Assembly: GCA_016208685.1 (NCBI GenBank)
Contig: JACQXM010000036.1
Span: 1 to 64,000, forward strand
Direction: 5' to 3'
From: Planctomycetota bacterium
GTDB lineage: Bacteria; Planctomycetota; Phycisphaerae; UBA1845
DNA length: 64,000 bases
A program made the position numbers and the translations under genes. Each line of letters starts with the position of its first letter. The first letter of the stretch is position 1. Below, one piece after another: positions 36,116 through 50,994 of this stretch. A model generated the notes under the pieces. That model was not told the origin of the DNA. It did not search any database and saw only the letters and a list, made by a program, of their open reading frames with translations.

Positions 36116-36231
36116 CGGTTATCCTCCGCGGTGAACTCTGGGCGGGTTCGTTTCCGCCCGGGACCGTGTCACGGCTCCTTATCGTTCGCTTGTCGCGCCG
36201 CTCCCTTAGCAGCCTGTAGCAGAAATCGTGG

Positions 36232-36272
36232 CATGGGCTTCCAGCCCATGGTTTCACGGGCAGGATGCCCGT
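36232..36272. repeat. Twin hairpin repeat between cysH and cysI
   Basis: CATGGGCTT-CCAGCCCATG (36232-36250) and ACGGGCAGGATGCCCGT (36256-36272) are two adjacent hairpins. Similar GGGCTTCCAGCCCATG elements are a familiar intergenic repeat in high-GC planctomycete-type genomes. They lie in the 523-base spacer within the sulfate-assimilation run and could affect mRNA processing or stability. Confidence 0.5.
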
Positions 36273-36457
36273 ACTACATCGCGTAGGCCGCTTTTCGCCA
36301 CGGGCTGTTAGGACCCGGTTCCCGGCGTGCTGATTCCGGCGGGTCATCACCGGCATTCACCGGTTGAAATCGCTGGCTCCGCGGCGCGCCGGTGTCCTGC
36401 TCCCGGTTCCCTGTCCCCTTTGTCTCCGCGCATTGGGCTGCGGCCGTCGTCGCTCCA

Positions 36458-36632
36458 GCGGTCCGATCCCCGACGGTCGCGGTGCGGATCGTTCGAGGTC
36501 ACGTCCACGCGGTGCACGTTCCCGCGGTCCGATCTCCGACGGTCGCGGTGCGGATCCCTCACCGCCACGTCGCGACCTCGGCCCGCTCCCTGACGGTCGC
36601 GGCTCAGTTTCCGCATTCCGCATTCACCATTC
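36458..36632. repeat. Clustered GACGGTCGCGG repeats
   Basis: A unit GCGGTCCGATC-(C/T)-CCGACGGTCGCGG extended by TGCGGATC occurs at 36458-36490 and 36524-36556, followed by a related CGCTCCCTGACGGTCGCGGCT segment. The last part, 36581-36632, is found in inverted orientation at 39147-39199. The cluster begins 7 bases after the cysH stop and fills most of the cysH-cysI gap. Confidence 0.65.
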
Positions 36633-36638
36633 CGCATT

Positions 36639-37429: not shown

Positions 37430-37464
37430 CAAACAAAAGGCCCGCGGGAACGATCCCACGGGCC
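37430..37464 (-). terminator. Intrinsic terminator in the cysH leader
   Basis: On the minus strand GGCCCGTGGG and CCCGCGGGCC form a 10-bp stem (one U-G pair) with a 6-base loop ATCGTT, followed directly by TTTTGTTTG. It lies between the leader ORF and cysH, in the normal place for a transcription attenuator. No other gene ends here that would need a terminator. Confidence 0.75.
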
Positions 37465-37489
37465 GCGAACGAGAGTCCTCTGCTGGGGG

Positions 37490-37558
37490 CTACGGCGCCG
37501 TCAGGTCGTTCCTCCGCGAGCGGAGGCACAACAACAGGCGCAATAGCACGCACACCAT
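37490..37558 (-). CDS. Candidate 22-residue leader peptide of the cysH operon
   Basis: ATG 37558 opens a 23-codon frame ending at TAG (37490-37492). The peptide is MVCVLLRLLLCLRSRRNDL followed by TAP. It holds two Cys codons, at positions 3 and 11, and a Leu/Arg-rich core. A 7-bp hairpin (CCTCCGC/GCGGAGG) lies within its coding sequence and the terminator starts 25 bases after the stop. It sits about 95 bases downstream of a promoter and about 135 bases before cysH. No strong Shine-Dalgarno is seen. Ribosome stalling on scarce cysteine could prevent termination; this is inferred from layout and is not demonstrated. Confidence 0.6.
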   Translation of the reverse strand: MVCVLLRLLLCLRSRRNDLTAP

Positions 37559-37658
37559 CGATTCCGGGGAATACGGCCGGCCTTCCGCACGGACGGATTT
37601 GACCGCCGCGAGCCGCACCGCACATCGAATGGAAACCTCTCCCCGATCATCAATTCAC

Positions 37659-37687
37659 ATGCTAATCATCGAGCACGCAGGTGTCAA
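37659..37687 (-). promoter_or_regulatory. Promoter of the cysH leader and operon
   Basis: Minus-strand TTGACA (37687-37682) is followed after exactly 17 bases by TAGCAT (37664-37659). The -35 is a perfect consensus. The transcript would start near 37652, giving a leader of about 300 bases before cysH that includes the leader ORF and the terminator. Confidence 0.7.
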
Positions 37688-50910: not shown

Positions 50911-50994
50911 TGCCGGAGGAGGGAGTCGAACCCTCACACCCTTGCGGGCACGGGATTTTGAATCCCGCGCGTCTGCCAATTCCGCCACTCCGGC
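50911..50994 (-). tRNA. tRNA-Leu (anticodon CAA)
   Basis: The minus strand gives an 84-base class II tRNA: acceptor GCCGGAG paired with CTCCGGC, D-arm with GGCAGACG, anticodon arm GGGATTCAAAATCCC with anticodon CAA, a long variable arm (TGCCCGCAAGGGT) and a T-arm GAGGGTTCGACTCCCTC, ending in discriminator A. The 3' CCA is not encoded. Class II form, A discriminator and CAA anticodon identify leucine. It lies 8 bases upstream of the STAS protein gene on the same strand. Confidence 0.95.

Follow-up and report, generated by a model that had tools for sequence, protein, structure and literature searches.

The region upstream of cysH in the window, by which we mean the whole 64,000-nt stretch of DNA analyzed, from an uncultured planctomycete, carries a promoter, a cysteine-rich leader ORF and a terminator. 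The features, all on the minus strand and given roughly in the direction of transcription, are as follows.

37687-37682, minus strand: -35 box TTGACA, identified by sequence; TTGAC(A) is kept at the same place in most relatives.
37664-37659, minus strand: -10 box TAGCAT, with a 17-nt spacer to the -35 box, identified by sequence and comparison with relatives.
37650-37501, minus strand: predicted leaderless leader ORF of 49 codons, ATG to TGA, encoding MIGERFPFDVRCGSRRSNPSVRKAGRIPRNRWCACYCACCCASARGGTT and ending in WCACYCACCCASARGGTT before the stop; supported by ATG spacing and the conserved poly-Cys frame.
37558-37490, minus strand: 22-codon ORF MVCVLLRLLLCLRSRRNDLTAP of the initial annotation, judged to be an out-of-frame by-product of the leader.
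37554-37528, minus strand: regulatory Cys-codon cluster TGT GCG TGC TAT TGC GCC TGT TGT TGT, with 6 Cys in 9 codons.
37520-37506, minus strand: antiterminator 5′ strand CTCGCGGAGGAACGA, with the core GGAACGA at 37512-37506, identified by species-matched complementarity to the terminator.
37464-37439, minus strand: intrinsic terminator hairpin GGCCCGTGGGA-TCGT-TCCCGCGGGCC, 11 bp, conserved and covarying.
37453-37447, minus strand: antiterminator partner TCGTTCC within the terminator (loop and 3′ arm).
37438-37431, minus strand: terminator T-tract TTTTGTTT, identified by sequence and comparison with relatives.
37355-36639, minus strand: cysH, phosphoadenylyl-sulfate reductase, the first structural gene (NCBIfam NF002537, above cut-off).
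36115-34382, minus strand: cysI-type assimilatory sulfite reductase, second gene of the presumed operon (NF010029, above cut-off).

The initial annotation had placed cysH downstream of the terminator, and the NF002537 match bears this out. Siroheme genes come after the cysI-type gene, and it is plausible that transcription continues into the whole sulfate-siroheme operon: in 34 of 57 loci, the fetched flank has a cysI-like gene downstream of cysH. The gap between the two genes in the window measures 520 nt (36116-36638) and contains repeated GC-rich stretches that yield similar peptides in several frames (e.g., SDGRGADRS).

The promoter proposed earlier, TTGACA-N17-TAGCAT, is present at 37687-37659 and is the better of only two sigma-70-like sites found over 9.6 kb, where 0.7 would be expected. 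When the promoter of each locus was taken as the best TTGACA/TATAAT-like pair, chosen without regard to ATGs, an in-frame ATG was found 6–11 nt past the -10 box in 41 of 45 strong-promoter loci, with 7, 4, 0, and 0 in the next spacing intervals, and 41 of the 42 ATGs at that distance were in the Cys frame. The ATG of the window's leader (37650) lies 8 nt past the -10 box. Transcription usually starts about 7 nt past the -10 box; with this ATG spacing, the leader AUG would therefore sit at the 5′ end of the RNA or no more than a few bases from it. The leader ORF is predicted, solely from promoter position, to be leaderless.

The density of Cys codons in the window's cluster was reached by none of 100 dinucleotide shuffles. 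A Cys-rich ORF occurs upstream of cysH in all 30 loci of the relatives taken first (for example, CACCCCCCC...), whose records are named as Phycisphaerae or Planctomycetota MAGs, and in most loci of a wider set of Phycisphaerae plus MAGs labelled Acidobacteriota and Gemmatimonadota, bearing in mind that taxon labels of MAGs may be wrong. Across 69 loci, the maximum number of Cys per 9 codons averaged 4.6, vs. 2.1 in dinucleotide shuffles and 2.0 on the reverse strand. Additionally, TGT accounts for 72% of the Cys codons in the leaders vs. 23% in cysH genes.

The leader is followed by a GC-rich terminator of about -25 kcal/mol in the window; the 10-bp stem and T-run described initially are real, with the stem extending to 11 bp. 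In almost all Phycisphaerae loci, the terminator reads GCCCGCAGGA-loop-TCCTGCGGGC-T-tract and lies at a similar distance past the leader stop, ending ~50–90 nt beyond it in nearly all of them, and a terminator of the same form was also found in the Acidobacteriota and Gemmatimonadota MAGs. In the alignment, 96% of its cells are paired, and its covariation exceeds that of 500 of 500 shuffles and lies far above slid controls. The distance from terminator to cysH is varied, ranging from ~27 to >300 nt. The neighbouring gene is divergent (37709 onward, plus strand), leaving no upstream gene whose transcription a terminator in this place would end.

The 3′-terminal part of the leader ORF, GGAGGAACGACC (the "RGGT" codons), can base-pair with the loop and 3′ arm of the terminator (UCGUUCC). 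Over 53 loci, each leader paired better with its own terminator than with permuted ones (z -4.5 and -5.3; 0 of 20,000 permutations as good), and in a stricter set of 37 loci the own-terminator pairing had a z of -3.7 (6 of 20,000 permutations); these permutations removed near-duplicates only, and relatedness can inflate shuffle tests. The control segment just past the leader stop showed no species-matched pairing (z -0.4). The pairs are recognizable by eye as GGAACGA/TCGTTCC in the window, GGAGCGATC/GATCGCTCC in L099, GGGACAC/GTGTCCC in L097, and AGGGCT/AGCCCT in L112. None of 500 shuffles reached the covariation of the antiterminator columns, and slid versions scored lower, with the columns being paired in just 62% of cells, with register shifts; the antiterminator is weak or absent in some relatives. 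The permutations, the column covariation and step-wise folding all indicate that antiterminator and terminator are mutually exclusive.

Step-wise folding was carried out on the window, L086, and L096, hiding the RNA upstream of the ribosome and up to 12 nt past the ribosomal A site. With the ribosome on the Cys codons, the probability of the antiterminator is near 1 while the first 8–10 nt of the 3′ arm emerge; with the ribosome at the stop codon, the terminator forms. In full-length equilibrium folding, the terminator of the window wins at every ribosome position, and switching fails for many relatives as well. Since the switch is seen only in step-wise folding, switching must be kinetic, occurring as the 3′ arm is made. 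The hairpin claimed inside the 22-codon ORF is real in the 129-nt fold of the window (z = -4.1). As a protector (1:2) hairpin, which would bring about termination in the absence of translation, it is strong in that fold and unsupported by covariation (z -1.1).

Comparison of the sequences establishes the poly-Cys frame, the position of the ATG, the terminator, the species-matched antiterminator and the association with cysteine genes. We infer translation of the leader, ribosome stalling, termination, and a response to cysteine. The element ahead of cysH is very probably a ribosome-mediated transcription attenuator that senses charged tRNA-Cys; in agreement with the original proposal of cysteine-responsive leader-peptide attenuation of the cysH operon, the comparative evidence from the poly-Cys frame, terminator and antiterminator supports this function strongly. 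With an RNA that starts at the leader AUG or a few bases from it, a ribosome would load at the 5′ end behind RNA polymerase. If Cys-tRNA were sufficient, the ribosome would clear the Cys codons, reach the UGA and cover the GGAGGAACGACC strand, upon which the terminator at 37464-37439 would fold and the RNA would end before cysH. If Cys-tRNA were scarce, the ribosome would stall in the Cys run and leave GGAACGA free to pair with UCGUUCC in the loop and 3′ arm, thereby blocking the terminator and allowing transcription of cysH and the sulfite-reductase and siroheme genes.

The peptide originally assigned to this element was the 22-codon ORF, with two Cys codons; such a leader might also sense Leu or Arg. 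This ORF, with its ATG, is present as written and its DNA is partly conserved, but it lies in the wrong frame: at least two Cys occur in that frame in merely 6 of 58 loci, on which basis we rejected it, and the conserved spacing from promoter to ATG and the Cys run belong to the adjacent frame (37650-37501), whose leader has 7 Cys in total vs. 2. The Leu run (LLL) of the shorter peptide corresponds to the TGT repeats (TGTTGTTGT) read one base off. Likewise, LRSRRND did not hold up as a conserved peptide; a degenerate search for it in 60 relatives gave scattered matches, and a control pattern matched too. The underlying DNA, CGCGGAGGAACGACCTGACGG, owes its conservation to RNA pairing, being the antiterminator strand. 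We therefore regard the 22-codon reading as extremely improbable.

A different account would keep the poly-Cys ORF and move the regulation to translation, as reported for the leaderless poly-Cys sORFs of mycobacteria, which act on downstream translation; stalling would then alter how accessible the downstream ribosome-binding site is, with the terminator playing a secondary part. Against this stand the strong covarying terminator with its T-tract in nearly all Phycisphaerae loci, the fact that the partner of the antiterminator is the terminator itself, and the wide range of distances between terminator and cysH, so that we consider translational attenuation improbable here. Terminator-controlled sulfur genes are often regulated by riboswitches, and Cys-rich uORFs are able to bind metals; the sensor could accordingly be an RNA that binds a metabolite or protein (riboswitch, T-box), or a Cys-rich peptide that binds metal. 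However, a search with Rfam 15 gave no riboswitch, T-box or leader family, or any other match, here at gathering thresholds, the only match in the window being a tRNA (50911-50994). Moreover, the conserved sequence beyond the Cys run consists of the antiterminator and terminator, and full-length matches to the element precede cysteine-pathway genes. Such a sensor has, in our opinion, very little to recommend it over an attenuator that reads charged tRNA-Cys.

The distribution of the element was analyzed with a covariance model built from it, R1, whose training set includes many of the family sequences described below. At E < 1e-8, the element adjoins cysH in 29 of 29 cysH-bearing genomes of the same family (36 searched, many of which trained R1) and occurs in 0 of 7 same-family genomes without cysH. 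The window's genome has a single copy. When 294 Planctomycetota genomes were searched with R1, only weak matches turned up beyond the family; the ones inspected proved to be ordinary terminators lacking a Cys leader, with the exception of a possible leuA leader. Matches outside the training set were also found in Acidobacteriota MAGs, where the element lies before a NirA/CysI-like siroheme sulfite/nitrite reductase in three genomes, and before a cysteine synthase, followed by JAMM-protease and MoaD-like genes, in one. These copies of the Cys element (L202, L203, L204, and L205) constitute a small cysteine regulon, and the kinds of gene that they precede speak for cysteine being the signal.

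Leader-peptide attenuation is itself classic. Like the enterobacterial trp, his, and leu attenuators, the planctomycete element has codons for the end product, an antiterminator and terminator that share a strand, and predicted termination with the ribosome at the stop codon. Unlike them, it has Cys as its presumed signal, a predicted leaderless ORF and an unsupported protector hairpin, and occurs in different phyla. In Actinobacteria, Cys leader peptides (Mycobacterium cys operon, P. acnes, B. longum cbs) similarly carry their Cys runs close to the stop of a short ORF that precedes cysteine genes, but among the mycobacterial cys leaders a 2005 survey saw no conserved terminator hairpins, and its authors suspected Rho (PMC1262725). 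Also among the closest counterparts are the leaderless poly-Cys sORFs of mycobacteria (Canestrari et al., 2020, as related in PMC9031893, PMC9094748 and PMC13236596), which likewise have contiguous Cys codons ahead of cysteine genes and are thought to read Cys-tRNA via ribosome speed; as described there, they are translation attenuators, whereas the planctomycete element has an intrinsic terminator with a matched antiterminator and is found in other phyla. A 2010 survey stated that, before its own Firmicutes case, Proteobacteria and Actinobacteria were the only groups with demonstrated leader-peptide systems, and that a function was known for almost none of the attenuators of Acidobacteria (PMC2965389). 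No later report of a leader-peptide attenuator in the phyla considered here was found in the literature searched. As far as that literature shows, the combination of a leaderless poly-Cys ORF, matched antiterminator and intrinsic terminator in these phyla is new. By joining a leaderless poly-Cys ORF to an intrinsic terminator, it links the mycobacterial and trp-type designs.

Whether planctomycetes are bacteria with compartmentalized cells has long been debated. Attenuation needs a ribosome close behind RNA polymerase; a planctomycete attenuator supported by covariation therefore makes transcription-translation coupling in these organisms directly testable.

A similar layout was observed ahead of other amino-acid genes. 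Two loci of Gemmatimonadota MAGs, L207 (G401 C139 40085-40223) and L208 (G398 C49 31908-32044), have Phe-rich leaders (MPQSRNVWFFYFTSPARPDGRPESVA and MIRSNRGWFYFYFTSAGAARCPSGVGRVL, respectively, each ending at a stop codon), with an ATG 6 nt past the -10 box, a terminator and then prephenate dehydratase; these are likely leaderless Phe attenuators. At a planctomycete locus, L167 (G128 C223 8811-8931), a Leu/Val/Ile-rich leader (MNQGYIQSRSQVHRLALVCGEIALVLALALLLPGVIAGGI, up to its stop codon) lies just past a TATAAA box and is followed by a terminator and a leuA-like gene, recognized by eye, making it a possible branched-chain attenuator. It is conceivable that leaderless leader-peptide transcription attenuators are a general, unrecognized control of amino-acid genes in Planctomycetota, Acidobacteriota and Gemmatimonadota, responding to Cys (cysH, siroheme reductase, cysM), Phe (pheA) and branched-chain amino acids (leuA), a proposal that we hold tentatively and with rather more doubt than confidence. 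If true, it would imply tight coupling of transcription and translation and ribosome loading right at the 5′ terminus of the RNA.

Finally, the cysH loci of Pirellulaceae (L118-L121) have very short ORFs, several of which end in CCCRRA, CCCRFA, or CCCSSA, followed by a shorter terminator whose sequence differs (GACCGCGGGG..CCCCTGCGGT); they are perhaps a reduced variant of the Cys element.
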